Shown piece after piece: positions 1,415 to 40,743 of a stretch of DNA of 64,000 nucleotides. The stretch is from Muricea muricata (taxonomy: Eukaryota; Cnidaria; Anthozoa; Malacalcyonacea; Plexauridae), in assembly GCA_963855995.1 (NCBI GenBank), contig OY979718.1, forward strand, positions 29,235,282 through 29,299,281, in the 5' to 3' direction. The notes beneath the pieces were generated by a model, which had not been told where the DNA came from, did no database searches, and saw nothing but the letters and a program-made list of their open reading frames with translations. Both the position numbers and the translations under genes were made by a program. Each line of letters begins with the position of its first letter. The stretch's first letter is position 1.

Positions 1415-2450
1415 TTCAACACCTTTACTACATTGTATTTATTTCAATTTTCAAAATAACCTATTTCTCAATATTGTAATTTTATTTTATATATGGAGAT
1501 GTAAATAGAAGAATGTCTTGAAAATCTAAGTTAGTATAATTAAACAGGAAGTAAAGTCTGTTTAGTGCACCTAACATTGTATGAGTGACACGGCATGGTT
1601 CTTCATTCATATTTTTTTCGATATTGAATATATAGTTTGATAATTATATAAAAGACATCAAATACTTTTTTTAAAATATATCCCATCTAAATTTTGCCTT
1701 TTTCATACATGATTAATGTGGTGATTACTTTTAAATTCCATGGCAACGATTTCACTGTTGGAATTTAAATTTAATTGCCTATTGTTTGAAGCAAAATATG
1801 TAAATAAACATGCTCACATTTATGCACACATCAGGTGCCCTAAACAGACATAGCTTTCTTTTTATTTTTCTTCATTCTCGTGATCTTGTCCCCACAAACA
1901 TATGGCATATTAGATTTTCAAGTTGCACTTATTTGAATAATATTTGCTCTAAATGTTCTTAATAGCCCTTGTCAATAATATTGTACTAGTATATATTAAA
2001 AGATTTTCAGTTGTGTTTTCCTCATTGTTCATCGTCATAACCTTGAAATTCTTTTTCTCCAGATTTACTCCATATTGTATCATAATCACATGCAGGTAAA
2101 GGTATTCTTCTTTTGCCAAGAAAGTTGTACACAAGTTGTATATACTGTTTGAATGCAACACTCCGAAGATATCTACAAAGTTAAATACCTAAGTGTTTAT
2201 TACCTAATAAATATACATTTTATATGATAATATACATATATAAACATGATATATATACTGTTACAGTGAATATAACTAAACTGTGTTGTTGCCAAGCATA
2301 ATGTACATTATATGCTATATACTGTAACACACCCTTGGAACTCAAATGGATGTGACTTATGTTTAATATTTGTCTGGTATTTGACAAAAACGATTTGTAA
2401 ATGTCTAGTATTTGACACAAAAATCTCTTGACAACTTATAATAACATATT

Positions 2451-2690
2451 GGGACATACCTGTTTTCATCACTGTGTATTTTGCACTTCTTTCGGTTAAT
2501 TTTTTTTATATCGCTCCTGCCAGACGTTAAAATCCTAATTTGTAGCTCATAATATTTCCAAAGTAACACATCCATCGAGGTAAAACCGTAGAATTTTTCC
2601 TCTGATTGACCATCTAGCCCTGAGTTCCCTGACATGCACATCTGTTGTCATTCCCCAATATAAACATTGTCATCTTCAACTTCCATCATA
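2451..2690 (-). pseudogene. Exon-like remnant in the right arm of palindrome 1 (inverted copy)
   Basis: This is the inverted counterpart of the left-arm remnant. It reads in one frame from ATG-ATG near 2690 (MMEVEDDN...), through one in-frame TGA, into SGNSGLDGQSEEKFYGF and on to SDENR, then a GTATGT donor. It is more open than the left copy because only one stop interrupts it. The function is unknown. The donor at the end suggests that one or more downstream exons once followed in the spacer. Confidence 0.35.
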
Positions 2691-3065
2691 TAACTCGCGA
2701 GAAAATTGTTTTCTGATTCGGCTTGGCTGCCATTTGGATCAGTAAAGCTTGAAGACACTTTCCCATTTGAAATTCAAAGAAAAAGTACCGTAGAATCGGC
2801 AAAAAATTCGATTAAAACATATTTCAACCCTCTCTGTAGTATAGAATACTAGTTTGTTATCAATGCGTGTTCCCGATTTGACGTCACAGGAGCATACTCG
2901 CCCCAGTTTTTTTATGCTCACGGTATTTTGAAAAATCGCCCACTTCAGGCCCCCAAAAGTACATGAAGATCAAATTTTCGACTTATTAAATATATTGCAA
3001 ATCTTCTTAAAATCACCTAAACTATTGAAATATGCATATTCCCTGACTACCGGTAGGCACTTTAA

Positions 3066-3238
3066 TAAAATTTAAGTTAAAAGGGTCCAAGGAGATGGGA
3101 GAGTGGGGGCCAGTTAATACTTTGTAAACAACAATGCCTTCTGAAATCAACTGGCTGTAAATGTTGGTATTCGTATTCGTAATACTGTGATCGATGAAGT
3201 TACTGGTGTTAAAATAAATTATACCTTCTCTCCTTCAG
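3066..3238. other. Non-repetitive spacer ending in a splice acceptor
   Basis: This stretch lies between the right end of palindrome 1 and the first visible SAMD3-like exon. I see no coding potential. Its end (CTCTCCTTCAG) is a good splice acceptor, so it is probably intron. The start of the gene would then lie upstream of palindrome 1 or outside the window. Confidence 0.4.
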
Positions 3239-5606
3239 TTTTCTCCCAGCGTTACTCTTGCACTGGAAAACAAAGCATTGGAAGGAAATACGAGGCATGA
3301 ATTTATTCGAGATGTATGCTCTCATATATCCTCCCATATATCCTCCCATGGAGTTTATTATCTCAAAAAAACGGAACGCCACCAAGTTGCTGCAGCCATT
3401 GTCAGCAAATACCCCTTCCTCAAAGATGCAATTGGAAGTGGTCTGGTAAGTTATTACCTTATTACCTAATTAACCGAGAGTTTTGGTCGTGTTTTACCTG
3501 CTAGGCTTATTCTCCCACACAACCTCCACAGAATACAAAATGAAGCATAAGGTCCACTCAGAAGTGCAATGTGAAGCCCTACTTTTATGTATAAAATATA
3601 CTGGCTGAGATAATAGTAATGAGATGTGTAATGCGACACGTTACGTGGCAACACAAACTTCAGAGGTTCCGCCTCTAGTGGACCTCCTGCCCACAGAGCT
3701 CTATTGATATATAAATAGGGCTCAGTGCTCCTGCCCTATTTTAATTCTGTGAGACCACACTAAAATTTTGCTTAATGCTGATCGTTACTCTGTACGTAGT
3801 TATTTCACTTGTTTTCCTTATTAAAGTGCCCATGTCGAAATGAAGGATTTTCAGCAGCCTAAATCAATTGCTTAGGCTATTTCAATTCTCAACAAATTTG
3901 TGTCATATTCGATCAGTTGAAAATGTCATCTTTGTAACCTCTTTGTTTTCACTAGCCTCCTCCGCAGGCTTCACCTTTAGATTCGACGGAAAAATTTACT
4001 TGTAGGCAAAAAATTGAAGTGGCGGTACTTAGGATAATTTTATTAAAAGTGTCCCTGGATTACAGTCTTCAGTGTCATGGCAACATTAAGAAATTTGCAT
4101 TATTTAGGGCTCCTGGGATGAATCAATAAAAAACAGGTTCAAACATGTCCGAAAATACGATGCCAAGAAACGAAAGATCTCTTTTCAGGACACAGACAAT
4201 GAGAGCAGCCCAATTACAAAAGAAGTCACCAAGCCTAAGAGAATTAAACGGGTGGATTTTTGGAATGACATCCCATATATATATATATACCTAAAAAATT
4301 TGATTCTAAAATAACTAGGTCCATTCATGTTTTTCAGATTTGTTAAGAATTTTGTAGGGTAATAAAAGATGAAAATGCCGTCCATGATATCAAGGAAAGG
4401 TTCTTGAAGTATAGTAGGGCTGTCACGAAATATTGCAAGGAGCAAAGCAGAAAACCTGCTTTCATCAAAAACATGCTCTGCTTCTTGCAAGAAGCCATTG
4501 CGAAGGAAGAAGCACCAATCGAAAGTAGGCTCATAATACAATTTACATTTTTACTATACAGTATCTGTCTCACTAGGTAATCCGTATATGCCTGCTATAT
4601 ATTTACCTTCATGCGGTTAAATCAACTTCTTCTTGAACGAATTTCTTCATGTTTTCATGCATTTTTATAATGGTTTAGGTCTTGAGGTTGCGTTTGCTCT
4701 CATCGCTCTGCCAGAGCTGCTACGACAAAAGAATAAGAAGTCCACATGCGACGTTATAAAAGTCATAAGTGTAAGTGTCCTTTCAATTCCTCAGTTGTTT
4801 CTTAATATGTAATTTGTCCCTGACATTGAGGTTGTAGAAGCGCAGTATGTATGGATGGCTTTCATATCTTTTTACAACTTTAATTGGTGTTTATTAAGAA
4901 TTTTAAATAATTTAAGAGTTTTGATTGATTAAGAACTGTCGGTGAGACCGTCATATCCGTCCGGTAGCTTCCCAAATTTAGGACGTCACGCTAATTTATG
5001 CGGCTTATGTCAAAAGCGGCGTATTAAGAGCTTGTATGGAAATTTCGCAGCGTAATTAAAACTGCACCTTGTAATCTGACAACATGCAGTTTTACTGAGT
5101 CCGGTGTATTTGCAAATAAACCATTATTGAATTCGGTTCTCGTAGGATATGAGAAATTACTAAGGCCGTGGTTTGTGTTATCTGCTGCAGCCTTTGGCCT
5201 TGACAGAACACAAACCTTTGCCATAATAATTTTTCATATCCTACGAGTACTGAATTCAATAACAACTTCTTATGAAATGAGCGCGAGGTCTGTACAGAGA
5301 ACCATCGGATCGAGATCTTTTTGTACAGATCGAGCCCGTAGGGCGAGGACTGGTGAAAGTGCTTCTCAGCCAATAGTGGACCGGTGAAAGTGCTTCTCAG
5401 CCAACCACAGGCCGCCATTTCACCGGAAGCGATGCTTGCCATATAATAATTGTTTAATATTGACTAGTGTATGTTCTGCGTCCTGTGAATTCATGGCTAT
5501 TTTTTCTATTCAGGAAGATGAGGATATCTCGAGTATTATTGCAGCTGTAACGTTTCCGACTGTTTTGCGAGTCCGCTTATTCCCACTAAAACCGTGGTTT
5601 GTGTAG
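3239..5606 (+). CDS. SAMD3-like family gene, partial, five visible exon blocks
   Basis: Exons with acceptor and donor sites: 3239-3445 (acceptor TCCTTCAG, donor GTAAGT), 4108 to about 4246, about 4355-4524, 4679-4770 (donor GTAAGT), and 5514-5606 ending in TAG. Exon 1 contains ERHQVAAAIVSKYPFLKD and exon 2 continues with WDESIKNRFKHVRK. This order of a helical ‘VA-aIV-kYPfLkD’ block followed by ‘W---lkNRfk--RkK’ is typical of the large, poorly characterised group annotated as SAMD3-like in fish and marine invertebrates. The last exons read LEVAFALIALPELLRQ and EDEDISSIIAAVTFPTVLRV. Phases join cleanly from exon 3 to 4 and from 4 to 5. The junction from exon 2 to 3 does not: the only donor before the stop is phase 0, while exon 3 needs phase 2, and a TA repeat sits at the exon 2 end. 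So an exon is lost or the gene is decayed there. No SAM domain is visible. Molecular function unknown. Confidence 0.6.
4275..4290. repeat. Short TA microsatellite at the end of SAMD3-like exon 2
   Basis: A run of alternating T and A follows ACATCCCA, where exon 2 of the SAMD3-like gene should end. It coincides with the splice-phase mismatch between exons 2 and 3, so a replication slip or local deletion may have removed the original donor. Confidence 0.5.
5124..5262. repeat. Hairpin-forming MITE-like insertion in the last intron of the SAMD3-like gene
   Basis: The left arm (5124-5179) and right arm (5205-5262) are inverted copies that share TATTGAATTC, CTCGTAGGATATGA and GGTTTGTGTT, separated by a loop of about 25 bp. 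This is a compact foldback typical of a MITE. I cannot place it in a superfamily. Confidence 0.6.
5352..5405 (+). repeat. Two-copy direct repeat, 31-bp period
   Basis: GGTGAAAGTGCTTCTCAGCC appears twice, 31 bp apart, just upstream of the last exon of the SAMD3-like gene. No function is evident. Confidence 0.6.
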
Positions 5607-7819: not shown

Positions 7820-9960
7820 TTGTCCCCAAGTGGCTGTTGACTCTTCGTCTTTATGTCCCTCACCTTTCTCCCGGGCCTGAAAGCTGTCCGGAAATTCCGT
7901 TTCACTGCTACCCTCTTGAGCTGCTCCGATAATCCCTGTACGTATGGTATGCTGACATTGCACATCAATAATTCTCATTCTCCTCCACCAGTTCTTTTCT
8001 TCTGTTCCTTTCTGTCTCCATGTATTTCCTCACCTTCCCTCTTTCATAACCATTTGCCACAAAGACATCCTCTATGTTTTTTAACTCATTACCCAAATGT
8101 TGATCATCACACAGTGCCCGTGCTGTGTCTGCAAATCCTTTTATGATCCCTTTCTTCATATAAGGAGGATGGTTTGACTTTTCTTTAACGTTAATGTTCG
8201 TATGTGTTTTCTTATAATGTACCATACACTCAACTTGTTTCGTTTTTCTATCAACTCTCTGTTTCAAATCTAAAACCGGTAATGTATCATCTTTCTGTTC
8301 CTCTTTGGTAAATTGTATTACTCCTTTCTCCAACCCGTTTAAATGCTCAAGTATCTTTTCGGAATCTTCCTTCTCACACTTCAATTCACTATCATCCACA
8401 TACCAATACCATTGATCCAATGGGCACGGCGAGGTATCCATTGCCCGAATCCGGAAATCCTCCATGTAAATCTTTGCAATCTCACCAGTTGTTCCGAGAT
8501 CAATCGGACCACTGTCCAACACATAATGCTTTCCATTGTACTCACAATACGTTAAGCCAAACATCCATCTCAGCAACTCCATGATCGAATCCACACCAAG
8601 TTTCGTGACCTTGCCCAATGTCTTACAATTCCTCAATAACCTCTACCAGATCAAGTGCCTTACTAATTGGTATCGATGGGTATAGATTTTTCACATCGTA
8701 ACTAACCAGGATCTCATTTCTTTCTACTCTCCAGCTTTTAACTTTTTCTTTCAATTCCCCAGAGTTCTTTACAAACAGTCCACTCCGTCCTTGGATTGTT
8801 CTTAAAATGGGTATCAAAAATCTTGAAATCCTTTCATACGGTGAACCCACAGTCGATACTACTCCTCGTAACGGTACTCCATCTTTGTGATTCTTTGGTA
8901 AACCCGACAGTCTTGGTGCATGGCAATCCTTTGGTTTCAAATATTTACCTGACTCTTCCGACAGCTCATTCTTCTTTACAATTTTTTCAATAATTTTTGT
9001 CCCAATTCGGCAAACCTTTTCTGTTAAATCCCAATCCTTTCCTGCCCTAACACTTGGTTTCGCCTTCAAATCAACAAGTACTTAATTCATTTTGAACTCA
9101 TAACTGTCTTCCCCTCCATGACTCTCCCATTTGTCCATAGCTACCATGACACGTTCTTTGTCAGCTGGCAGATATACTGTATTCTGGTCTTTCATAGCTC
9201 TCCTCTTTCCCCTTTCCTCTTGTTTATTTAAGTTTGACGGATATTTCTTGTGTCTAGCCCTCTCTAAAATCACTCTTACATCCTCTCGTAATTCACTAAC
9301 TTCCCGCTCTATTATATCATCACCAGTCTCTTTCCTTTCCCCTTCCTCTCTTATCATCAAACAAATCTTCTCTGTCTCTGTTATTATTGTCTCATACGGC
9401 ACCCGTCTTGGTGTTTCACAAAAATCTGGTCCCAACGATAGGTATTGTTTTATATCATTATCAATTCCATTCTTTGTTACATCCACCACCTCTTTCTTAA
9501 TCTTTTCTTTCTTCATTCTTTCCTGTTCCATCAGCAGGTCCCTCCTTTTAACTTCAATCTTTCTTTTGTCATCAAGCAAAGACTGATAAATTTCGTATTT
9601 GCCTTTCTTTTACTTTACTATGTTTTTTCGTCCGGAGTCATTTACAACTTCCTCAAGCCATTTAAAATCATTCTCTTCCAGTTTTTCTCTTAACCCCATT
9701 GTTATATCTCCTTTCTGGCGATCCGTTGAATATAACTTTCGTCTTACGTCTTTTATTCGCGCTATTAGCCGTACACTTTCAAGTCTGGACTTCATTTTTG
9801 ACACACTTCTCATGCTAAATTCTTCCTTCGATAGTCTTATCCTCAAACCAAATGGGACTACGCCATTGTCCCAGCATTTCTCAAAAATTTAAGATGGTTC
9901 CTCAATCTCGCAATCTTTGTTGTATACTTCTGTAAGTTATCTGCTAGTTTAAGATAACGG
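7813..9960 (-). pseudogene. Penelope-type reverse transcriptase, frame-broken
   Basis: The minus strand reads in pieces. About 9930-9610 is an N-terminal block with FLRNAGT then VPFGLRIRLSKEEF. 9579-9082 contains YLPADKERVMVAMDKW, the PADK-like block before the RT. 9069-8623 has APRLSGLPKNHKDGVPLR and VSYDVKNLYPSIPI (RT motif A with its aspartate). 8636-7965 has the catalytic YVDD and then SNHPPYMKKGIIKG and NGYERGKV. A last piece, 7945-7815, has IPYVQGLSEQLKRV and NFRTAFRP. These are the family blocks in order. Stops or frameshifts separate them near 9850, 9600, 9075, 8630 and 7960. After KTKSQQPLGDKL the frame stops, so the usual GIY-YIG nuclease domain is absent. Confidence 0.85.
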
Positions 9961-12838: not shown

Positions 12839-15800
12839 GATAAAACGCGATTTTGATGCTTGTAAGATCGTTTTCATTCTGTTTGAAAGAAGGTTATAGG
12901 TTTCTCATTGCAACAAGTTATTTCATTCATCTCCATCATTTGAGCGTCATAACATGATTCCCGTCTTGGTAGGATCTGAAATTTCCATTTACAAGGTCGC
13001 TTTTTGGTCCGTGATTGCCGTATATCATTGCACTCAACTCGATCACTTTAGCACTCAAAAGATCATTTTAAACTCTAAAACGTCACCGTTGTCGATTTAA
13101 GACGGCAATTCTTAGTTGGTGATTTGAACATGTTTTTACGCTGAAATTGCTTCCGAACGCATAAAACGCAATTTTGTAGCTTGTAAGATCATTTTAATTC
13201 TGTTTGAAAGAAGGTTATGGGTTTCTCATTGCAACAAGTTATTTCGTTCATCTCCATCGCTTGAGCGTCAAAAACATGATTCCCGTCTTGGTAAGATCTG
13301 AAATTTCCATATAGAAGGTCTCTTTTTGGTCCGTTATTGAAATATATCATTGCACTCAACTCGATCACTTTAGCACACAAAACATAATTCTAAACTCGAA
13401 AACGTCACCGTTGTCGATTTAAGACGGCAATTCTTAGTTGGTGATTTGAACATGTTTTTACCCTGAAATTTCTTCCAGAACGCTTAAAACGCAATTTTGA
13501 TGCTTGAAAGATCATTTTCATCAAGTTTGAAGGAATGTTATAGGTTTCTCATTGCAACAAGTTTTTTCGCTAATCTCGATAGTTTGAGTGCCGAAAACAT
13601 GATTCCCGTCTTGGTAAGGTCTCAAATTTCCATTTAGAAGGTCTCTTATAGCTTTTTGGTCGGTTATTGAAATATATCATTGCGCTCAACTCGATCCCTT
13701 TAGAACTCAAAACATCATTTTAAACTCGAAAACGTCACCGTTGTCGATTTAAAACTGGATTTTTTTGTTGAAAATTTTAATATGTTTTTACGCTGAAATT
13801 TCTTCCAGAACGCTTAAAACGCAATTTTGATGCTTGAAAGATCATTTTCATTAAGTTTGAAGGAATGTTATAGGTTTCTCATTGCAACAAGTTTTTTCGC
13901 TCATCTCGATAGTTTGAGTGCCGAAAACATGATTCCCGTCTTGGTAAAGTCTCAAATTTCCATTTAGAAGGTCTCTTATAGCTTTTTGGTCCGTTATTGA
14001 AATATATCATTGCGCTCAACTCGATCACTTTAGCACTCAAAACATCAATTTTAACTCTAAAACGTCGCCGTTGTCGATTCAAGACGGAAATTTTTAATTG
14101 GTTATCGTAACATGTTTTTACGCTGAAATTATTCCAGAACGATAAAAACGCGATTTTGATGCTTGTAAGATCTTTTTCATTCTGTTTGAAAGAAGGTTAT
14201 AAGTTTCTCATTGCAACAAGTTTTTTCGCTTGTCTCGATAGTTTTAGTCCCGAAAAAATGAGTCCCGTCTTCGTAAGGTCTTAAAGTTCCATTTAAAAAC
14301 TCTCTTTTTGGTGCGTCACCCAAACATATCATTGCGCTAAACTCGATTACTTTAGCACTCAAAACATCATTTTAAACTCTCAAACGTCGCCGTTGTCGAT
14401 TAAAAACGGAAATTTTTAGTTGGTGATTTGGACATGTTTTTACGCTCAAATCAAGTCCAGAACGCTTAAAAGGCGATCTTGATTCTCGTAAAATCGTTCT
14501 CATTCAGTTTGAAAGAAGGTCATAGGTTTCTCATTGCAACAAGTTATATATTTCGTTCATATCCATCGTTTAAGCATCAAAAACATGTTTCCCGTCTTGG
14601 AAAGATCTGAAATTTCCATTTAGATTGTCGCTTTTTGGTTCGTGCTTGCAATATATCATTGCGCTCAACTCGATCACTTTAGCACTCAAAACATAATTTT
14701 AAGCTCTAAAACGTCGCTGTTGTCGATTTAAGACGGCAATTTTTAGTTCGTGATTTGAATTTTTTTACGCTGAAATTGCTTCCTTAAAACGCGATTTTGA
14801 TGCTTGTAAGGTCGTTTTCATTCTGTTTGAAAGAAGGTTTTAAGTTTCTCATCGCAACAAGTTTTTTCGCTTGTCTCAATAGTTTGAGTGCCGAAAACAT
14901 GATTACCGCTTTGGTAAGGTTTTAAATTTCCATTTACAAGGTTTCTTTTTGGTCCGTTATACAAATATATCATTGCACTCAACTCGATCACTTTAGCACT
15001 CAAAACATCATTTTAAACTCGAAAACGTCACCGTTGTCGACGTAAGACGGCAATTCTTAGTTGGTGATTTGAACATATTTTTACGCTGAAATTTCTTCCA
15101 GAACGCTTAAAACGCGATTTTGATTCTTGTAAGATTGTTTTCATTCTGCTTGAAAGAAGGTTATAGGTTTCTCTTTGCAACAATTTATTTCGTTCATCTC
15201 CATCGTTTTAGCGTCAAAAACATGATTCCCGTCTTGGTAAGATCTGAAATTTCCATATAGAAGGTCTCTTTTTGGTCCGTTATTGAAATATATCATTGCA
15301 CAACTCGATCACTTTAGCACTCAAAACATAATTTTAAGCTCTAAAACGTCGCTGTTGTCGATTTAGGACGGCAATTCTTTGTTGGTGATTTGAACATGTT
15401 TTTACGCTGAAATTCCTTCCAGAACGCTTAAAACGTGATGTTGATTCTTGTAAGATCGTTTTCGTTCATTTTGAAAGAAGGTTATAAGTTTCTCATTGCA
15501 ACAAGTTTTTTCGCTCATCTCGATAGTTTAGTGCCGAAAACATGACTCCCGTCTTGGTAAGGTCTAAAATTTCCATTTAGAACGTCTCTTTTTGGTCCGT
15601 TATTGAAATATACCATTGCGCTGAGCTCGATCACTTCAGCACTCAAAACATCAATTTTAACTCTAAAACGTCGCCGTTGTCGATTTAAGACGGCAATTTT
15701 TAGTTGGTTATCGTAACATGTTTTTACGCTGAAATTATTCCAGAACGATAAAAACGCGATTTTGATGCTTGTAAGATCGTTTTCATTCTGTTTGAAAGAA

Positions 15801-16070
15801 GGTTATAAGTTTCTCATTGCAACAAGTTTTTTCGCTTGTCTCGATAGTTTTAGTCCCGAAAATATGAGTCCCGTCTTGGTAAGGTCTTAAATTTCCATTT
15901 AAAAACTCTCTTTTTGGTGCGTTATTTGAATATATCATTGCGCTAAACTCGATTACTTTAGCACTCAAAACATCATTTTAAACTCTCAAACGTCGCCGTT
16001 GTCGATTAAAAACGGAAATTTTTAGTTGGTGATTTGGACATGTTTTTACGCTCAATCAAATTCAGAACGC
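12839..16070 (+). repeat. Satellite, type A, about 10 monomers
   Basis: Monomers of about 320 bp with type A diagnostics, quite diverged from one another. The array restarts at GATAAAACGCGATTTTGATGCT, almost the same 22 bp at which the first segment broke off (7397-7418). The part from about 14470 onward is closely repeated after palindrome 2 (19591-21200), which indicates a block duplication of about five monomers. Confidence 0.9.
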
Positions 16071-16074
16071 TTAA
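16071..16074. repeat. TTAA target duplication, left (palindrome 2)
   Basis: TTAA precedes the terminal AGTGGCAC. The same tetranucleotide follows the other terminus at 19587-19590. The uninterrupted satellite paralogues at about 14462 and 21200 have one TTAA at this point (CTTAAAAGGCGAT), so it is a true duplication. Confidence 0.85.
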
Positions 16075-16267
16075 AGTGGCACTAGAGCCGGAAAATGAAT
16101 CCTAATTTTTTTACAAATATAGAAAGTATACAAGTAATTATGCAGACTCACGAAATTTCAGCTTTCAATTCCGCTTCTTTCCGTCATTTTTTAAACCAAA
16201 AGACACGAATTTCACGTCCGTTGTTACAGAGTCTTCAATTAGCGAGCACGGTGAACAAAACCGGATG

Positions 16268-16275
16268 TGACGTCA
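16268..16275. promoter_or_regulatory. CRE octamer TGACGTCA upstream of the P2X7-tail-like gene (left arm)
   Basis: A perfect CREB/ATF octamer 116 bp before the start codon at 16391. It is conserved in the other arm (19385-19392) and parallels the octamer in palindrome 1. Confidence 0.5.
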
Positions 16276-16390
16276 AAGACTCAACACGCTGTGTCAGTCG
16301 CATAGTGAAATCATACAATTTTGTTTACGAAATGTATTACTAATATTCCTTCGGTTTAGTTTTCTTTCGTTCGTTGTTTTTTAATTTACT

Positions 16391-17490
16391 ATGTCAACTG
16401 AAGACGAGGCAGGATCCTGTTCAGAAGAAAAGTCCGAAGAAAGTAATAATCACTCTCCTGATGAGGAAATGTTGTATGGGGCTGATTCAAACTCATTTGA
16501 AATTGAAGCAGGGTCAAATTTATACGATGTCTCGGCGGATCCCATTGCCACGGAAGAAGAACACCAAAATTATATTTTACAAGCTGTGGCTGATAAAATA
16601 GATGAATTAGAAGAGCTTTGTTTGCGATTAACTGGGGAACAGTGTATCGACTTTTGGTAACTTTCTTTGTTATACCACGCTTTATGGAGTATACTAAAAA
16701 TGTCATGCTGCATTGCTGCTGTCTATTCATGATAACGAGTAGGGTTAAAAACAGGTTGGATACGTTCATTGTATACGATTGCATCACTAAGCTATATGGA
16801 TTGCATCCACGATATCATATTCGCACTAAATATTCTTTTATCTTGAGTAATATTATGCATGTTATTTGAATTGTTTTGCAAGTTTTGCACTGTATTGGGT
16901 TTTAGGTGTAACTGTGGCAATTGCTCTACAGAGCTTATTGTGAAGCCTGAAGAGTGTCAATGCTGCCATGAAATTGCACAAGTCCGGAATAAAATAATGG
17001 AGGAGAAAATGGGTGACCAGTGTTTGACGAAGCACCCAGGTTTTGAAGCTGGTTGTTTAAATCAGTGGGCTTTACGACTTGCTGGTTTGAGCTACAGGAC
17101 GAAAAATAAAGGGTGTAAAAATTATACAACTTTATACAAAAAAGGGAAAAAAACAGAAGCAGAGTAAGTGCTAGTGAAAATCAATGATTAGAAAATCTAC
17201 CTGTTACTTGTTCTCAATTCGCTGTAGTTAAAATATTTAGTGCCCTTATACTGGATCAAGTATCATGGCAAGAGATCATATTAAAGTCTTTGATTCAATG
17301 TAAATCTGTGAATATTTTTTTAAGGTTCTTCAGGCCAGTGTCACATAGACAAGTGGTCAGGCTGGTGTGGGATTACACAGGCAGCTCAACAAGATATCGT
17401 TTACCATGTTGTGTCTATGCCAGAATTCGCAAAGAATTTCCAAGCAAAGACTATGTAGGGTTTGAAGAAGAGGAAGATGACTTGGATTGA
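16391..17490 (+). CDS. P2X7 cytoplasmic-tail (ballast)-like cysteine-rich protein, three exons, open copy
   Basis: Exons 16391-16656, 16906-17163 and 17325-17490 join in phase (GT-AG introns of 249 and 161 bp) to a 229-residue protein. Residues 1-88 are acidic and low in complexity. The domain starts at the first splice junction with W89-C-N-C-G-N-C95, then C106-Q-C-C109-H, C128-L-T-K-H-P-x-F and C139-L-N, and ends with R200-L-P-C-C-V and I-R-K-E-F-P-x-x-D-Y-V-G-F221, then an acidic tail. This order is that of the P2X7 C-terminal domain, which in mammals binds zinc through such cysteines. There are no membrane segments, so this is the tail module alone, as in the many ‘P2X7-like’ genes of marine invertebrates. 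Cellular role unknown. The ATG at 16391 is chosen because it is the first in frame and follows the CRE by about 120 bp. The family assignment is from recognition, not search. Confidence 0.8.
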
Positions 17491-17995
17491 TTTCTTTAGT
17501 AAGCTAATTTTTTCATTAGTAATTTGTTGAAGACCATTCATAATTTATCAGCTTCTGGTGGTTGGCACTGATGAATTTCAAATTTTAGTAATACATAAAG
17601 TTAATTTTGTTTTGGTTAATACAGTATTAAAAAGTGCTCCATGTCAATTAGGTATGGTAGAGCTCATGGTAGAGCATGCAGATAGCGATTTTTTAACCCA
17701 AAAGGTTACCAGTAAAAACTTTTTCATCGAAGAAAAATCATCACATGGTAATTAATACACATAGTAATTTAGAAGTGACCTTTTGAGGAAATGGTATCAC
17801 AAAAAGTTAAGATTAGATCTTCTTTAAATGAAATAAATTCTGCGTGTTCTATTAATGAGTATAAATTTTTAGCCAAATTGATTGTTGTTATATTGGGGAC
17901 TTAATTTTATCATGGAGCAGACTTTTACTTGCCAAATGCTAGGTGATTTTACTTGCCAGCACATGTCAATGGATTATATTTATATAAATACCTTA
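17491..17995. other. 3' region of the gene and central spacer of palindrome 2
   Basis: The stretch to about 17664 is still part of the left arm. 17665-17995 is the unpaired spacer. An AATAAA at 17832-17837 could serve as poly(A) signal for the plus-strand gene. A short open frame (17558-17755) has no recognisable motif. Confidence 0.45.
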
Positions 17996-18168
17996 GCCCT
18001 ACCATACCTAATTGACATAGAGCACTTTTTAATACTGTATTAACCAAAACAAAATTAACTTTATGTATTACTAAAATTTGAAATTCATCAGTGCCAACCA
18101 CCAGAAGCTGATAAATTATGAATGGTCTTCAACAAATTACTAATGAAAAAATTAGCTTACTAAAGAAA

Positions 18169-19269
18169 TCAATCCAAGTCATCTTCCTCTTCTTCAAACC
18201 CTACATAGTCTTTGCTTGGAAATTCTTTGCGAATTCTGGCATAGACACAACATGGTAAACGATATCTTGTTGAGCTGCCTGTGTAATCCCACACCAGCCT
18301 AACCACTTGTCTATGTGACACTGCCCTGAAGAACCTTAAAAAAATATTCACAGATTTACATTGAATCAAAGACTTTAATATGATCTCTTGCCATGATACT
18401 TGATCCAGTATAAGGGCACTAAATATTTTAACTACAGCAAATTGAAAACAAGTAACAGGTAGATTTTCTAATCATTGATTTTCACTAGCACTTACTCTGC
18501 TTCTGTTTTTTTCCCTTTTTTGTATAAAGTTGTATAATTTTTACACACTTTATTTTTCGTCCTGTAGCTCAAACCAGCAAGTCATAAAGCCCACTGATTT
18601 AAACAACCAGCTTCAAAACCTGGGTGCTTCGTCAAACACTGGTCACCCATTTTCTCCTCCATTATTTTATTCCGGACTTGTGCAATCTCATGGCAGCATT
18701 GACACTCTTCAGGCTTCACAATAAGCTCTGTAGAACAATTGCCACAGTTACACCTAAAACCCAATACAGTGCAAAACTTGCAAAACAATTCAAATAACAT
18801 GCATAATAATACTTAAGATAAAAAAAATATTTAGTGCGAATATGATATCGTGGATGCAATCCATATAGCTTAGTGATGCAATCGTATACAATGAACGTAT
18901 CCAACCTGTTTTTAACCCTACTCGTTATCATTAATAGACAGCAGCAATGCAGCATGACATTTTTAGTATACTCCATAAAGCGTGGTATAATAAAGAAAGT
19001 TACCAAAAGTCGATACACTGTTCCCCAGTTAATCGCAAACAAAGCTCTTCTAATTCATCTATTTTATCAGCCACAGCTTGTAAAATATATTTTTGGTGTT
19101 CTTCTTACGTGGCAATGGGATCCGCCGAGACATCGTATAAATTTGACCCTGCTTCAATTTCAAATGAGTTTGAATCAGCTCCATACAACATTTCCTCATC
19201 AGGAGAGTAATTATTACTTTCTTCGGACTTTTCTTCTGAACAGGATCCTGCCTCGTCCTCAGTTGACAT
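18169..19269 (-). pseudogene. Inverted copy of the P2X7-tail-like gene, with two nonsense codons
   Basis: Exons on the minus strand are 19269-19004, 18753-18496 and 18334-18169, identical in length and splice sites to the left-arm copy. Codon 55 (GAA in the left copy) is TAA, and codon 146 (CGA, arginine) is TGA; otherwise only scattered substitutions are seen. The ATG, all three exon frames and the terminal IRKEFPSKDYVGF are retained. So this copy cannot make the full protein unless the stops are bypassed, while the left one can. Confidence 0.8.
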
Positions 19270-19384
19270 AGTAAATTAAAAAACAACGAACGAAAGAAAA
19301 CTAAACCGAGGGAATATTAGTAATACATTTCGTAAACAAAATTGTATGATTTCACTATGCGACTGACACAGCGTGTTGAGTCTT

Positions 19385-19392
19385 TGACGTCA
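19385..19392. promoter_or_regulatory. CRE octamer TGACGTCA (palindrome 2, right arm)
   Basis: The mirror copy of 16268-16275, upstream of the minus-strand gene copy. Confidence 0.5.
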
Positions 19393-19586
19393 CATCCGGT
19401 TTTGTTCACCGTGCTCGCTAATTGAAGACTCTGTAATGGCGGACGTGAAATTCGTGTCTTTTGGTTTAAAAAAATGACGGAAAGAAGCGGAATTGAAAGC
19501 TGAAATTTCGTGAGTCTGCATAATTACTTGTATACTTTCTATATTTGTAAAAAAATTAGGATTCATTTTCCGGCTCTAGTGCCACT

Positions 19587-19590
19587 TTAA
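19587..19590. repeat. TTAA target duplication, right (palindrome 2)
   Basis: It follows the terminal CCACT and is continuous with satellite sequence AAGGCGATCTTGAT. Confidence 0.85.
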
Positions 19591-21904
19591 AAGGCGATCT
19601 TGATTGTCGTAAAATCGTTTTCATTCAGTTTGAAAGAAGGTCATAGGTTTCTCATTGCAACAAGTTATATATTTCGTTCATATCCATCGTTTAAGCATCA
19701 AAAACATGTTTCCCGTCTTGGAAAGATCTGAAGTTTCCATTTAGAACGTCGCTTTTTGGTCCGTTATTGAAATATATCATTGCGCTCAACTGGATCACTT
19801 TAGCACTGAAAACATAATTTTAAGCTCTAAAACGTCGCCGTTGTCGATTTAAGACGGCAATTTTTAGTTGGTGATTTTAACATAATTTCACACTGAAATT
19901 GCTTCCAGAACGCTTAAAACGCGATTTTGATGCTTGTAAGATCGTTTTATTCTGTTTGAAAGAAGGTTATAGGTCTCTCATTGCAACAAGTTTTTCGCTC
20001 ATCTCGATAGTTTGAGTGCCGAAAGCATGATTCCCGTCTTCGTAAGGTCTAAAATTTCCATTTATAAGGTCTCGTTTTGGTCCGTTATTCAAATATATCA
20101 TTGCGCTCAACTCGATCACTTTAGCACTCAAAACATCATTTTAAACTCTAAAACGTCGCCGTTGTCGATTTAAGACGGAAATTTTTTGTTGGAGATTTGA
20201 ACATGTTTTTACGCTGAAATTTCTTCCAGAACGCTTAAAACGCGATTTTGATTCTTGTAAGATTGTTTTCATTCTGCTTGAAAGAAGGTTATAGGTTTCT
20301 CTTTGCAACAATTTATTTCGTTCATCTCCATCGTTTTAGCGTCAAAAACATGATTCCCGTCTTGGTAAGATCTGAAATTTCCATATAGAAGGTCTCTTTT
20401 TGGTCCGTTATTGAAATATATCATTGCACAACTCGATCACTTTAGCACTCAAAACATAATTTTAAGCTCTAAAACGTCGCTGTTGTCGATTTAGGACGGC
20501 AATTCTTTGTTGGTGATTTGAACATGTTTTTACGCTGAAATTCCTTCCAGAACGCTTAAAACGTGATGTTGATTCTTGTAAGATCGTTTTCGTTCATTTT
20601 GAAAGAAGGTGATAAGTTTCTCATTGCAACAAGTTTTTTCGCTCATCTCGATAGTTTAGTGCCGAAAACATGACTCCCGTCTTGGTAAGGTCTAAAATTT
20701 CCATTTAGAACGTGTCTTTTTGGTCCGTTATTGAAATATACCATTGCGCTGAGCTCGATCACTTTAGCACTCAAAACATCAATTTTAACTCTAAAACGTC
20801 GCCGTTGTCGATTTAAGACGGAAATTTTTAGTTGGTTATCGTAACATGTTTTTACGCTGAAATTATTCCAGAACGATAAAAACGCGATTTTGATGCTTGT
20901 AAGATCGTTTTCATTCTGTTTGAAAGAAGGTTATAAGTTTCTCATTGCAACAAGTTTTTTCGCTTGTCTCGATAGTTTTAGTCCCGAAAATATGAGTCCC
21001 GTCTTGGTAAGGTCTTAAATTTCCATTTAAAAACTCTCTTTTTGGTGCGTTATTTAAATATATCATTGCGCTAAACTCGATTACTTTAGCACTCAAAACA
21101 TCATTTTAAACTCTCAAACGTCGCCGTTGTCGATTAAGGACGGAAATTTTTAGTTGGTGATTTGGACATGTTTTTACGCTCAAATCAAATCCAGAACTCT
21201 TAAAAGGCGATATTGATTCTCGTAAAATCGTTTTCATTCAGTTTGAAAGAAGGTCATAGGTTTCTCATTGCAACAAGTTATATATTTCGTTAATATCCAT
21301 CGTTTAAGCATCAAAAACTTGTTTCCCGTCTTGGAAAGATCTGAAGTTTCCATTTAGAAGGTCGCTTTTTGGTCCGTTATTGAAATATATCATTGCGCTC
21401 AACTGGATCACTTTAGCACTGAAAACATAATTTTAAGCTCTAAAACGTCGCCGTTGTCGATTTAAGACGGCAATTTTTAGTTGGTGATTTGAACATGTTT
21501 TTACGTTGAAATAGCTTCCAGAACGATTAAAATGCGATTTTGATGCTTGTAAGATCGTTTTAGTGAGTTTTGATGCTGGTAAGATCGTTTTCATTAAGAA
21601 TGTTTTAGGTTTCTCTTTGCAACAAGTTATATATTTCCTTCATATCCATCGTTTGAGCGCCAAAAATATAATTCCCGTTTTGGAAAGATCTGAAATTTCC
21701 ATTTAGATTGTTGCTTTTTGGTTCGTGATTGCAATATATCATTGCGCTCAACTCGATCACTTTAGCACTCAAAACATAATTTTAAGCTCTAAAACGTCCC
21801 TGTTGTCGATTTAAGACGCAAATTTTTAGTTGGTGATTTGAACATGTTTTTACGCTGAAATTATTCTAAAACGCTTAAAACGCGATTTTGATGCTTGTAA
21901 GATC
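19591..21904 (+). repeat. Satellite, type A, about 7 monomers; block duplicate of 14470-16070
   Basis: The first ~1.6 kb repeats the segment before palindrome 2 almost exactly, including private variants such as TTGCAACAATTTATTTCG and ATTGCACAACTCG. The site matching the palindrome insertion point is empty here (near 21200). A small internal duplication (GATGCTTGTAAGATCG / GATGCTGGTAAGATCG) lies near 21540. Confidence 0.9.
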
Positions 21905-24900
21905 GGTTTGAGCGCAGAAAACCTGATTCCCGACTTGCTAGGTTCTGCAATTTCCATTTAGAAGGTCTCTTTTAGCTTCGTAATTGCAGTACATCATTGC
22001 GCTCAACTCGTTCACTTTAGCACTGAAAACATCATTTTAAGCTCAAAAACGTCGCCCTGATCGATTTAAAACGGCAATTTTTAGTTGGTGATTTGAGCAT
22101 GTTTTTACGCTCAAATCGCTTCTAGAACGCATAAAACGCGATTTCGATAGTTCTAAAATCGTTTCTTTTCAGTTTACAAGCAAGCTCTAAGTTTCTTCTT
22201 TCAACGTGTTATTTCGCTCATCTCGATGGTTTGAGCGGCGAAAACATGATTACCGACTTGCTAAATTCTGCAATTTTCATTTAGAAGGTCTCTTTTAGGT
22301 CCGTGATTGCAGTACATCATTGCGTTCCCTCGTTCACTTTAGCACTGAAAACTTCGTTTTAAGCTCTAAAACATCGCCCTGATCGACTTAAAACAGATAT
22401 TTTGAGTTGGTGATTTGAGCATGTTTTTACGCTCAAATCGCTTCTAGAACGCTTAAAAAGCGATTTTGACGGTTCTAACTTCGTTTCATTTCAGTTTATA
22501 AGAAAGTTATAGGTTTCTCATTTCAAAATGTCATTTCGCTCATCTCGATGGTTTGAGCGCCGAAAACCTGATTCCCGACTTGCTAGGTTCTGCAATTTCC
22601 ATTTAGAAGGTCTCTTTTAGGTCCGTGATTGCAGGACATCATTGCGCTCAACTCGTTCAGTTTAGCACTGAAAACATAATTTTAAGCTCTAAAACGTCGC
22701 CCTGATCGACTTAAAACGGCAATTTATGTTCATCATTTAAGCATGTTTTTACGCTCAAATCGTTTCTAGAACGCCTAAAAGGCGAATTTGTTGGTTCTAA
22801 GATCGTTTCCTTTCAGTTTACAAGCAAGTTAGATGGTTTCTCATGTCAACGTGTTACTTCGCTCATCTCGAAGGTTTGAGCGCCGAAAACATGATTCCCG
22901 ACTTCCTAAGTTCTGCAATTTTTATTTTGAACGTCTCCTTTAGGTCCGTGATTGCAGTTCATCATTGCGTTCAACTCGTCCACTTTAGCATTGAAAACAT
23001 CATTTTAAGCTCTAAAACGTCGACCTGATCGCTTAGAACGGCGAGTTTTAGTTGTGATTCGAGCATGTTTTTACGCTCATATCGCTTCCAGAACGCTTAA
23101 AACGCGATTGTGATGGTTCTAAGATCGTTTCTTTTCAGTTTACAAGCAAGTTATAGGTTTCTCATTTCAATATGTCATTTCGCTCATCTCGATAATTTGA
23201 GCGCCGAAAACCTGATTCCCGACTTGCTAACTTCTGCAAATTCCATTTAGAAGGTCTCTTTTAGGTCCGTGATTGCAGTTCGTCATTGCGTTCAACACGT
23301 TCCCTTTAGCACTGAAAACCTCATTTTAAGCTCTAAAACGTCGCCCTGATCGACTTAAAACGGCGAATTTTAGTTGTGATTTGAGCATGTTTTTACGCTC
23401 AAATCGCTTCTAGAATGCTTAAAACGCGACTTTGATATTTCTAAGATCGTTTCTTTTTAAGTTTACAAGCAAGTTATAGGTTTCTCATGTCAACGTGTTA
23501 TTTCGCTCATCTCGATGGTTTGAGCGGCGAAAACATGATTCCCGACTTGCTAAGTTCTGCAATTTCCATTTAGAAAATCCCTTTTATGTCCGTGATTGCA
23601 GTATATCATTGCATTGAACTCGTTCACCTTAGCACTGAAAACATCATTTTAAGCTCTAAAACGTCGCCCTGATCGACTTAGAACGGCGAATTTTAGTTGT
23701 GATTTCAGCATGTTTTTACGCTCATATCGCTTCCAGAACGCTTAAAACGCGATTTTTATGGTTCTAAGATCGTTTCTTTTCAGTTTACAAGCAAGTTATA
23801 GGTTTCCATTTCAACATGTCATTTCGCTCATCTCGATAATTTGAGCGCCGAAAACCTGATTCCCGAGTTTCTAACTTCTGCAAATTCCATTTAGAAGGTC
23901 TCTTTTAGGTCCGTGATTGCAGTTCATCATTGCGTTCAGCTCGTTCACTTTAGCACTGAAAACCTCATTTTAAGCTCTAAAACGTCGCCCTGATCGAGTT
24001 AAAACGGCGAATTTTAGTTGTGATTTGAGCATGTTTTTACTCTCAAATCGCTTCTAGAACGCTTAAAATGCAATTTTGACGGTTCTCAGATCGTTTCTTT
24101 TCAGTTTACAAGCAAGTTATAGGTTTCTCATTTCAAAATGTCATTTCGCTCATCTCGATGGTTTGAGCGCCGAAAACCTGATTCCCGACTTGCTAACTTC
24201 TGCAGTTTCTATTTAGAAGGTCTCTTTTAGGTCCGTGACTGCAGTACAACATTGCGTTCCACTCGTTCACTTTAGCACTGATAACTTCATTTTAAGCTAT
24301 AAAACGTCGCCCTGATCGACTTAAAGCGGCAATTTTTAGTTGGTGATTTGAGCATGTTTTTACGCTAAAATCGCTTCTAGAACGCTTAAAAAGCGATTTT
24401 GATGGTTCTAAGATCGTTTCTTTTCTGCTTAAAAGCAAGCTATAGCTTTCTCATTTCAAAATGTCATTACGCTCATCTCGATGGTTTGAGCGCAGAAAAC
24501 CCTGATTCCCGACTTGCTAAGTTCTGCAATTTCCATTTAGAAAGTCCCTTTTATGTCCCTGATTGCAGTATATCATTGCATTGAACTCGTTCACTTTAGC
24601 ACTGAAAACATCATTTTAAGCTCTAAAACGTCGCCCTGATCGACTTAGAACGGCGAATTTTAGTTGTGATTTGAGCATGCTTTTACGCTCATATCGCTTC
24701 AAGAACGCTTAAAACGCGATTTTTATGGTTCTAAGATCGTTTCTTTTCAGTTTACAAGCAAGTTATAGGTTTCTCATTTCAACATGTCATTTCGCTGATC
24801 TGGATAATTTGAGCGCGAAAACCTGATTCCCGACTTGCTAACTTCTGCAAATTCCATTTAGAAGGTCTCTTTTACGTCCGTGATTGCAGTACATCATTGC

Positions 24901-36800: not shown

Positions 36801-39659
36801 TTTAGAAAGTCCCTTTTATGTCCGTGATTGCAGTATATTATTGCATTGAACTCCTTCACTTTAGCACTGAAAATATCATTTTAAGCTCTAAAACGTCGCC
36901 CTGATCGACTTAGAACGGCGAAATTTAGTTGTGATTTGAGCATGTTTTTACGCTCATATCGCTTCCAGAACGCTTAAAACGCGATTTTTATGGCTCTAAG
37001 ATCGTTTCTTTTCAGTTTACAAGCAAGTTATAGGTTTCTCATTTCAACATGTCATTTCGCTCATCTCGATTATTTTAGCGCCGAAAACCTGACTCCCGAG
37101 TTTCTAACTTCTGCAAATTCCATTTAGAAGGTCTCTTTTAGGTCCGTGATTGGAGTTCATCATTGCGTTCAACTCGTTCACTTTAGAACTGAGAACCTCA
37201 TTTTAAGCTCTAAAACGTTGCCATGATCGACTTAAAACGGCGAATTTTAGTTGTGATTTGAGCATGTTTTTACTCTCAAATCGCTTCCAGAACGCTTAAA
37301 ACGCGATTTTGACGCTTCTAAGATCGTTTCTTTTCAGTTTACAAGCAAGTTATAGGTTTCTCATTTCAAAATGTCATTTCGCTCATCTCGATGGTTTGAG
37401 CGCCGAAAACCTGATTCCCGACTTGCTAACTTCTGCAATTTCTATTTAGAAGGTCTCTTTTAGGTCCGTATTGCAGTACAACATTGCGTTCCACTCGTTC
37501 ACTTTAGCACTGAAAACATCATTTTAAGCTCTAAAACGTCGCCCTGATCGACTTAGAACGGCGAATTTTAGTTGTGATTTGAGCATGTTTTTACGCTCAT
37601 ATCGCTTCCAGAACGCTTAAAACGCGATTTCTATGGTTCTAAGATCGTTTCTTTTCAGTTTACAAGCAAGTTATAGGTTTCTCATTTCAACATGTCATTT
37701 CGCTCATCTCGATGATTTTAGCGCCGAAAACCTGATTCCCGAGTTTCTAACTTCTGCAAATTCCATTTAGAAGGTCTCTTTTAGGTCCGTGATTGGAGTT
37801 CATCATTGCGTTCAACTCGTTCACTTTAGCACTGAGAACCTCATTTTAAGCTCTAAAACGTTGCCCTGATCGACTTAAAACGGCGATTGTAGCATGTTTT
37901 TACTCTCAAATCGCTTCCAGAACGCTTAAAACGCGATTTTGACGCTTCTAAGATCGTTTCTTTTCAGTTTACAAGCAAGTTATAGGTTTCTCATTTCAAC
38001 ATGTCCTTTCGCTCATCTCGATAATTTGAGCGCCGAAAACCTGATTCCCGACTTGCTAACTTCTGCAAATTCCATTTAGAAGGTCTCTTTTAGGTCCCTG
38101 ATTGCAGTACATCATTGCGCTCAACTCGTTCACTTTAGCACTGAAAAAAGAATTTTAAGCTCTAAAACGTCGTTCTGATCGATTTAAAAAGGCAATTTTT
38201 AGTTGGTGATTTGAGCATGTTTTTACGCTCAAATCGCTTCTAGAATGCTTAAAACGCGACTTTGATCGTTCTAAGATCGTTTCTTTTTAAGTTTACAAGG
38301 AAGTTATAGGTTTCTAATGTCAACGTGTTATTTTTCTCAACTTGATGGTTTGAGCGCCGAAAACATGATTCTCGACTTGCTAAGTTCTGCAATTTCCATT
38401 TAGAAGGTCTCTTTTAGGTCCGTGATTGCAGTTCATCATTGCGTTCAACTCGTTCATTTTAGCACTAAAAACATTCTTTTAAGCTCTAAAACGTCGTTAT
38501 GATCGATTTAAAACGGCAATTTTTAGTTGGTGATTTGAGCATGTTTTTACGCTCAAATCGCTTCTAGAATGCTTAAAACGCGACTTTGATCGTTCTAAGA
38601 TCGTTTCTTTTTAAGTTTACAAGCAAGTTATAGGTTTCTAATGTCAACGTGTTATTTTGCTTATCTTGATGGTTTGAGCGCCGAAAACATGATTCTCGAC
38701 TTGTTAAGTTCTGCAATTTCCATTTAGAAGGTCTCTTTTAGGTCCGTGATTGCAGTTCATCATTGCGTTCAACTCGTTCATTTGGCACTAAAAACATTCT
38801 TTTAAGCTCTAAAACGTCGTGATGATCGATTTAAAACGGCAATTTTTAGTAGATGATTTAAGCGTGTTTTTACGCTCAAATCGCCTCTAGAACGCTTAAA
38901 ACGCGATTTTGATGGTTCTAAGATCGTTTCTTTTCAGTTTACAAGCAAGTTATAGGTTTCTCATTTCAAAATGTCATTTCGCTCATCTCGATGGTTTGAG
39001 CGCCGAAAACCTGATTCCCGACTTGCTAACTTCTGCAAATTCCATTTAGAAGGTCTCCTTTAGGTCCGTGATTGCAGTTCATCATTGCGTTCAACTCGTT
39101 CACTTTAGAATTGAAAACCTCAATTTAAGCTCTAAAACGTCGCCCTGATCGACTTAGAACGGCGAATTTTAGTTGTGATTTGAGCATGTTTTTACGCTCA
39201 TATCGCTTCCAGAACACTTAAAACATGATTTTGATGGTTCTAAGATCGTTTCTTTTCAGTTTACAAGCAAGTTATAGGTTTCTCATTTCAACATGTCATT
39301 TCGCTCATCTCGATAATTTGAGCGCCGAAAACCTGACTCCCGATTTGTTAACTTCTTCAAATTCCATTTAGAAGGTCTCCTTTAGGTCCGTGATTGCAGT
39401 TCGTCATTGCGTTCAACTCGTTCCCTTTAGCACTGAAAACCTCATTTTAGGCTCTAAAACGTCGCCCTGATCGACTTAAGACGGCGAATTTTAGTTGTGA
39501 TTTGAGCATGTTTTTACTCTCAAATCGCTTCCAGAACGCTTAAAATGCGATTTTGACGGTTCTCAGATCGTTTCTTTTCAGTTTACAAGCAAGTTATAGG
39601 TTTCTCATTTCAAAATGTCATTTCGCTCATCTCCATGGTTTGAGCGCATAAAACCTGAT

Positions 39660-40743
39660 TAATAGATCAATTGCTTTTCGGTATGAAATAGATTGTCCGT
39701 TAAAAACACACAAAGAATAACGCAATGTTTATGTGGGAGAAATGGGTCATGGTGATGAAGTACTCCAATATAAAAGAACTATTACATAGCATTACTTATG
39801 TAATCATAGACTCGTATACAGTAACCAGCGGGGTGCATATAGGCCCGCTTGTAAGCTGAGTGCCCTTGGGATTAAGATTCCCATCAGGCAATGTTAAAGA
39901 GGTTAAGATCCCCCCTAACATTAACCTTTCCAAGGGGTTAAGATCCCCTTGGACAGTCCCTAGAATTTGAACAAGGGGTTAAGATCCCCATAAGACAATG
40001 TTAGAGGGGTTAAGATCCCCTCTAACATTAACCTGCCCAAGGGGTTAAGATCCCCTTGGACAGTCCTTAGAACTATTTACACATATTATAGTAACATTAA
40101 AGATGTGAGTCTATGGCCTGAACGTGATTATGGGAGCACTTCATCCCATAACCATATATATTTACTAGCCGTACAACTAACTTACAACCTGATAAAATAC
40201 TATATGTATTGTGTTAACCCAGTTCCATTTTAGTAACTTGTTGGCACATTTAAATTGTGTCCTTGAATAACGTTAATATTCTTCTTGGTGTCCGTGCAGT
40301 CCGGTGCATCTTACCATCATCTTCATGCCATATGTGACGTGGTGGGTGGGTGGGAAAATTATTGTAGCAGCTCCAATCTCTTGAGAGCTTTTACACAAAT
40401 TAAAGATATGACTGGCGAGCATGCATTGTTATCCTTACAAATCGACGGTTTTTATTGGCCGATCAGATCTCGGTCATATTATTCAGAATTCTCATTGGTT
40501 ATTTAAGACAAGCTGGCATGATGTGCACGTGCCCACAGCATGCATAGAGCATGATTATTGAGCTGATGTTAAACAGCGATAACCTTTGATCCATGCGTGA
40601 AATATTCAAATCACACCTAACAGAAACATGAGAACTTAGCACAGCCAATATCACTGCGTGAACAATATTCGAGGGACTTCCCTGCAATTATTCGCATTGC
40701 TCTATTAACTTTAATTTATAATTTTGGTATTATAAATTGGCTT
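39660..40743 (+). mobile_element. Helentron-like non-autonomous element (1,084 bp), copy 1 of a tandem pair
   Basis: It begins TAATAGATCAATTGC and ends GGCTT. The 5' end is repeated in inverse near the 3' end: GCATTGCTCTATTAA (40694-40708) is nearly the reverse complement of TTAATAGATCAATTGC. Next comes a 10-bp hairpin with a 6-base loop (40713-40738), then about 5 bp to the end. It lies between T and T of the satellite (ACCTGAT / TCCCGA) without a longer target duplication. Asymmetric inverted ends, a 3' hairpin, T-T insertion and tandem copies are the published traits of Helentrons and their non-autonomous derivatives. It has no Rep/helicase. Confidence 0.7.
39865..40070. repeat. Cluster of hairpins with GGGGTTAAGATCCCC core
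   Basis: Five or six copies of the core GGGGTTAAGATCCCC or close variants, each in an inverted context. Examples are CCAAGGGG/CCCCTTGG and AATGTTAGAGGGG/CCCCTCTAACATT around a TTAAGAT loop. Short internal tandem motifs are common in non-autonomous Helentrons. The same cluster is in each copy of the element. Confidence 0.8.

Follow-up and report, generated by a model that had tools for sequence, protein, structure and literature searches.

A palindromic, non-autonomous Kolobok-type element with a KolX-like gene in each arm in Muricea muricata

Structure and insertion site of the palindrome

The window analyzed here, a 64,000-nucleotide stretch of the Muricea muricata assembly (contig OY979718.1), contains a 3512-bp palindrome whose two inverted arms each carry a three-exon KolX-like gene (Table 1). 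In a self-comparison of the window, three inverted-repeat segments (131, 653, and 832 nt), all 98% complementary, pair 16071-17664 with 17995-19590. The arms differ in 26 alignment columns, of which 2 are gaps, and the terminal 60 nt are identical on the left and the right. An earlier description made from the letters of the window (the sequence-only reading) had proposed a palindrome with inverted arms, which is confirmed by the 98% complementary arms around 330 nt. The same reading put the ends at just 17 bp, but the match between the palindrome ends and both ends of longer relatives extends over approximately 171 bp. It was right that the element lacks a transposase, as only two left ends are present and the transposase side is absent.

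In the left arm, three exons with GT/AG borders, predicted from sequence alone, join into a single frame of 229 codons. The right-arm gene has the same exon borders on the minus strand, so that the genes of the two arms are convergent, but its frame is broken by two stop codons. The claim that both arms hold the same three-exon gene thus stands.

Table 1. Features of the palindromic element in the window
Feature	Position	Strand	Basis
Palindromic non-autonomous Kolobok-type element, 3512 bp	16075..19586		Inverted repeat, TTAA borders, collinearity with longer element
Left TTAA target-site copy	16071..16074		Single TTAA at the same site in uninterrupted satellite monomers
Right TTAA target-site copy	19587..19590		
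Left terminal inverted repeat, 171 bp, matching both ends of longer relatives	16075..16245	+	
Right terminal inverted repeat	19415..19586	-	
Left arm	16075..17664	+	Collinear with left end of longer element
Right arm, inverted parental positions ~1605-1	17995..19586	-	
Spacer, 330 bp, single copy	17665..17994		Collinear with longer element on to its ~1913
KolX-like copy 1, exon 1 (inferred)	16391..16656	+	
KolX-like copy 1, exon 2 (inferred), six of seven aligned cysteines	16906..17163	+	
KolX-like copy 1, exon 3 with stop (inferred)	17325..17490	+	
KolX-like copy 2, exon 1, one internal stop codon	19004..19269	-	
KolX-like copy 2, exon 2, one internal stop codon	18496..18753	-	
KolX-like copy 2, exon 3	18169..18334	-	

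The element splits an array of a 322-bp satellite into two parts (12841-16052 and 19587-21909). When the flanks are joined with one TTAA, they align to element-free monomers within the window, best to 14323-14619 (97.6% over 297 nt, one gap). Judged against these sister monomers without the element, the TTAA found on both sides is a target-site duplication, as had been claimed.

The satellite blocks around the element (14466-16075 and 19587-21204) are 95.8% identical in direct orientation, possibly as part of a higher-order repeat. Also within satellite, 39659-43468 holds a 1.08-kb unit and then a second copy of it split by approximately 1.8 kb (489 nt at 99.4% and 390 nt at 100%). The same 107-bp arrays are found at 39868-40072, 40952-41156, 60491-60695, and 61575-61779. 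On the minus strand, open frames at 7968-9609 resemble, by eye, a Penelope-like or related reverse transcriptase.

Palindrome family and its longer relatives

The 453-Mb assembly was searched with the arm and with the ends, and the match counts are lower bounds. At least 33 arm matches were obtained, which resolve into nine palindromes and longer elements with inverted 171-bp ends. Palindromes occupy at least nine loci (the window, C1:105.09M, C1:14.76M, C5:11.78M, C1:86.24M, C1:12.77M, C8:7.16M, C1:10.71M, and C3:28.59M), and other DNA interrupts three of the nine. The search with the 171-bp end gave at least 27 matches, 18 of them in palindromes, four in the longer elements L009 and L010, one in L014, and four in two divergent interrupted elements. 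The latter, at C1:74.44M (a 27-kb stretch) and C2:57.79M (a 60-kb stretch, C2:57.79-57.85M, read except for positions 57820201-57832000), have two end matches each and look like divergent family copies broken up by other DNA. Nine of the 14 elements in this end census are palindromes, and no other short form was seen in it. The palindrome family and the shared ends, with at least nine palindromic loci and at least 27 end matches, are far beyond chance. A scan of viral contigs for relatives returned 10 stretches fitting a pattern, none of which was confirmed.

All nine palindromes are flanked by TTAA on both sides, and so are 11 of the 13 elements for which the two ends were read. In the two exceptions, the left side is one base off (TTTA in L010 and ATAA in the 60-kb element at C2:57.79M). 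All 27 ends read start with AG, in keeping with a 5'-RR ... YY-3' arrangement. From a comparison of flanks by eye, the C5:11.78M copy apparently sits in the same TTAA of the same 322-bp satellite in the opposite orientation. Several dispersed TTAA-flanked copies with intact ends and no transposase are the hallmarks of a non-autonomous element moved in trans, and all of these are present here. The genome search that the sequence-only reading had suggested for TTAA-flanked copies at different loci thus returned nine palindromes rather than one locus, and the mobility that it proposed is supported by these nine insertions, by the empty monomers, and by larger partners in which these ends recur together with transposase-like exons.

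Two of these partners, L009 (C2:27.92M, 7.7 kb) and L010 (C2:71.67M, 6.9 kb), have the 171-bp inverted ends common to the palindrome, and L014 (C1:69.79M) is represented by its right half only within the 9.9 kb read. Both L009 and L010 have the three-exon KolX-like gene in a single copy at the left end, together with a gene for a THAP-domain, putatively DDE-like transposase that runs inward from the right end. The third KolX-like exon is cut short in L009, and in L010 the frame is open over 228 codons. A THAP domain (Pfam PF05485, E = 1.9e-11) lies near the right end of L009 on the strand opposite the KolX-like gene and was the one hit above the cut-off when eight frames from the longer elements were compared with Pfam. 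Inward of it and on the same strand, the stretches GDARHD, TDRHG, CLRH, and LEGYHS, candidates for the DDD/E core and for a C/DxxH motif before its last E, follow in this order over several frames, as recognized by eye, and regions matching these stretches, some with changes, were seen by eye in L010 and L014. L009 and L010 match the palindrome at 87-92% identity outside the ends, and interruptions seem to be present in their transposase frames; therefore, neither is its recent source. The suggested search for an autonomous partner with the same ends accordingly succeeded as to ends and transposase-like exons but yielded frames that appear interrupted.

Two papers (PMC6004289, PMC9587614) describe Kolobok elements as having TTAA targets and 5'-RR ends, along with a THAP domain, a DDE core, and a C/DxxH motif, and the second gives ends other than 5'-RR for piggyBac. 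By comparison with these descriptions, the TTAA sites, AG ends, and THAP domain fit the longer relatives to the Kolobok superfamily, and the stretches identified by eye may represent its DDE core. PiggyBac, considered because of the TTAA sites, was rejected, as the ends are AG and the eight frames, with E values up to 1 admitted, yielded a THAP domain but none of piggyBac type. The TTAA duplication, 5'-AG ends, and KolX-type accessory gene are shared with the Kol0 lineage of Kolobok (e.g., Kolobok-1_XT), as is the THAP-domain, putatively DDE-like transposase, which is found in the longer relatives and not in the window element; the latter differs from Kol0 in having no transposase and in being a palindrome of the KolX-bearing end. 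The T2-MITE/Xmix elements of Xenopus are likewise non-autonomous, with TTAA, RR-type ends, and presumed mobilization by a Kolobok transposase, whereas the window element is 3.5 kb long with two spliced genes, and KolX goes unmentioned for T2-MITEs in the parts of the source that treat them (PMC6004289).

Likeness of the gene to the P2X7 tail

Against the P2X7-tail model PF20478, which has a cut-off of 23.5 bits, the KolX of L010 scored 26.9 bits, and the window KolX (12.6 bits, E = 0.13) and the C1:105M copy (14.2 bits) remained under the cut-off. Membership is therefore based on the L010 copy together with the cysteine alignment. In one pairwise comparison, the window protein matched a P2X7-tail frame of the same genome (E = 2e-8) with seven cysteine columns in common, and that frame in turn matched solved P2X7 (E = 4.8e-25). 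A PDB search with the window protein itself matched no solved structure. The window protein shares the seven cysteine columns and a WCxCx2C, CC, C, P-C...IR..FP pattern with the P2X7 cytoplasmic ballast/ZCD domain and with Nanor, but it is without the channel part, and cysteine clusters 2 and 3 deviate from the vertebrate consensus spacing. The P2X7-tail likeness noted in the sequence-only reading is thus real, though weak for the window copy.

KolX, a second protein which resembles the C-terminal ballast of P2X7 and has seven conserved cysteines, has been reported as encoded by Kol0 Kolobok elements (Kojima and Bao 2022, PMC9587614). These authors argue for a KolX origin of both P2X7 and Nanor, with P2X7 as the product of a fusion between a P2X4-like gene and KolX, which makes P2X7 a derived user of the domain (PMC9587614). 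Rump and others described the P2X7-tail domain across animals, and the main text of that paper contains no "transpos-" word (PMC7016195). Encoding KolX is a feature of Kol0, and it is found in L010, with a score above the PF20478 cut-off and the seven cysteine columns, the window copy remaining under the cut-off. By its sequence, the window gene fits KolX, the Kol0 accessory gene.

The P2X7-tail model gave at least 150 matches on the assembly, all above the cut-off (150 scored of 738 first-look candidates), and none in 14 control genomes; therefore, the genome is rich in such genes. Several of these matches agree in score and length although they lie at different locations, so many may be KolX genes of transposons. 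Among the P2X7-tail matches listed (150 scored of 738 and 150 scored of 945), no close inverted pair that would indicate a palindromic KolX locus outside the family was seen by eye. Two 4.6-kb repeats (L029 1997-6564 and L030 2032-6618), 98% identical, contain a P2X7-tail frame and a separate cysteine-rich frame which by eye resembles a CXC (tesmin) domain. Their identification as Kolobok elements was not borne out, as a left border with TTAA is common to both and no matching right end was seen.

Formation of the palindrome and the role of KolX

Against L010, the palindrome is collinear over 1-1920 (L010 1-1913, 91%) and, in inverted orientation, over 1922-3512 (L010 1605-1, 92%), which leaves a sharp join with about one base between the two parental segments. 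Eight of the nine palindromes have this same join and a 290-335-nt spacer with the same ends; the spacer at C3:28.59M is only 50 nt, perhaps through a later central deletion. That eight of nine copies keep the same join points to a single founder, probably mobilized in trans. Identity between left and right arms averages 98.8% within a locus (highest 99.8% at C1:10.71M, lowest 97.7% at C5:11.78M) and 98.35% across loci, so arm-to-arm conversion seems limited. Diagnostic end bases were not decisive between fold-back repair and a template switch from one end to the other.

The element is very probably a palindromic, non-autonomous Kol0-type Kolobok derivative which goes back to one founder, was mobilized in trans, and carries its own KolX genes mostly as passengers. 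Repair of an excision or break would have copied the left end twice and joined both ends, giving rise to the founder. With its two left ends, the founder could then have been moved by a transposase supplied in trans into at least nine TTAA sites, and the KolX genes would have been carried along as the transposon's own accessory genes. Faulty repair is a usual proposal for the formation of foldback (long inverted repeat) elements and of Ds-type repair derivatives. These resemble the palindrome in their long inverted arms around a short spacer; the window element differs in that a complete spliced gene lies in each arm and its parental type has been identified.

Long reads are known to generate fold-back palindromes as an artefact, which raises the question of a false palindrome of this type or of one made by the assembly. 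We rejected it as scarcely credible, given nine loci with different flanks and TTAA on both sides, arms that are not identical to each other, and a spacer found in both orientations relative to the contig. The sequence-only reading regarded the gene as host-like cargo, that is, a P2X7-tail-like host gene which was taken up by a TTAA element and then duplicated. The gene does look spliced and host-like, and some of the at least 150 scored P2X7-tail matches could be host genes. Such a capture is nevertheless highly improbable and was rejected, since the gene is present in longer transposons, where its position at the left end is identical in L009 and L010, it adjoins an end in the two divergent elements at C1:74.47M and C2:57.79M as well, and it is published as the KolX that Kol0 Kolobok elements are reported to encode (PMC9587614).

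Distinct changes in the KolX frame among the 18 palindrome arms numbered 42 amino-acid, 4 stop, and 25 synonymous, against 47.6, 3.9, and 16.8 expected from the non-coding spectrum. Amino-acid to synonymous changes stand at a ratio of 0.47 uncorrected and 0.60 once the non-coding spectrum is corrected for; the binomial p of 0.03 points toward constraint. This result stems from the excess of synonymous changes, with no clear deficit of amino-acid changes. The comparison with the divergent C1:74M copy gave 45 amino-acid or stop changes where 111 were expected and 38 synonymous changes where 33.6 were expected (share test p = 5e-6), and nothing was seen relative to L010 (19 and 6, p = 0.63) or L009 (12 and 5, p = 0.37). 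Constraint on KolX thus emerges at the longest distance only, and the palindromes appear close to neutral, although weak constraint on their KolX may exist. A passenger gene on a trans-mobilized element is the likeliest status of KolX.

Selection could nonetheless keep KolX because it helps or limits transposition, the palindrome then being a satellite element that delivers KolX; apart from the word passenger, this is compatible with the trans-mobilized Kol0 derivative favored above. The uncorrected and corrected ratios, the predominance of palindromes in the end census where other short forms were not seen, and a KolX frame uninterrupted in 4 of 18 arms, spread over four of nine loci, speak for it. 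Yet the 46 amino-acid and stop changes are close to the 51.5 expected, and 14 of 18 arms are interrupted, eight with a changed exon-2 length (seven of these at one A-run) and one without exon 3. The A-run changes, in 7 of the 14 interrupted arms, could be sequencing error or decay. On balance, selection of this kind is unlikely. There is a similarly small chance that convergent KolX transcription yields double-stranded RNA and small RNAs which silence the parent Kolobok, which would also agree with the trans-mobilized derivative. The genes face each other in arms that are 98% complementary, but poly(A)-like hexamers downstream of the genes (17626 and 17832 on the plus strand; 18028, ATTAAA only, on the minus strand) precede the opposite arm, so transcripts may end first, and these positions argue mildly against a long hairpin RNA. 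It is also rather doubtful, but conceivable, that the palindrome lives as a parasite on its parent by delivering KolX. Its two left ends and two KolX genes would then favor it over the full-length element, be it that the KolX protein acts near the ends that produce it or that convergent transcripts silence the KolX of the parent. If true, this would account for nine palindromes beside two full-length near-family copies.

The presence of KolX in Kol0 and its P2X7-tail likeness were known beforehand from the 2022 paper (PMC9587614). We found no earlier report of a palindromic KolX-bearing Kolobok in a literature search in which subscription papers and Repbase reports were mostly not covered. P2X7-tail genes annotated in such genomes may often be transposon genes, which is a warning against misannotation. 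KolX has been proposed as the origin of the P2X7 receptor tail in the same paper (PMC9587614), which lends interest to a natural element that bears it. The palindrome keeps KolX and two identical ends without a transposase and would thus be a natural tool for learning whether KolX helps, limits, or is irrelevant to the movement of Kolobok elements.
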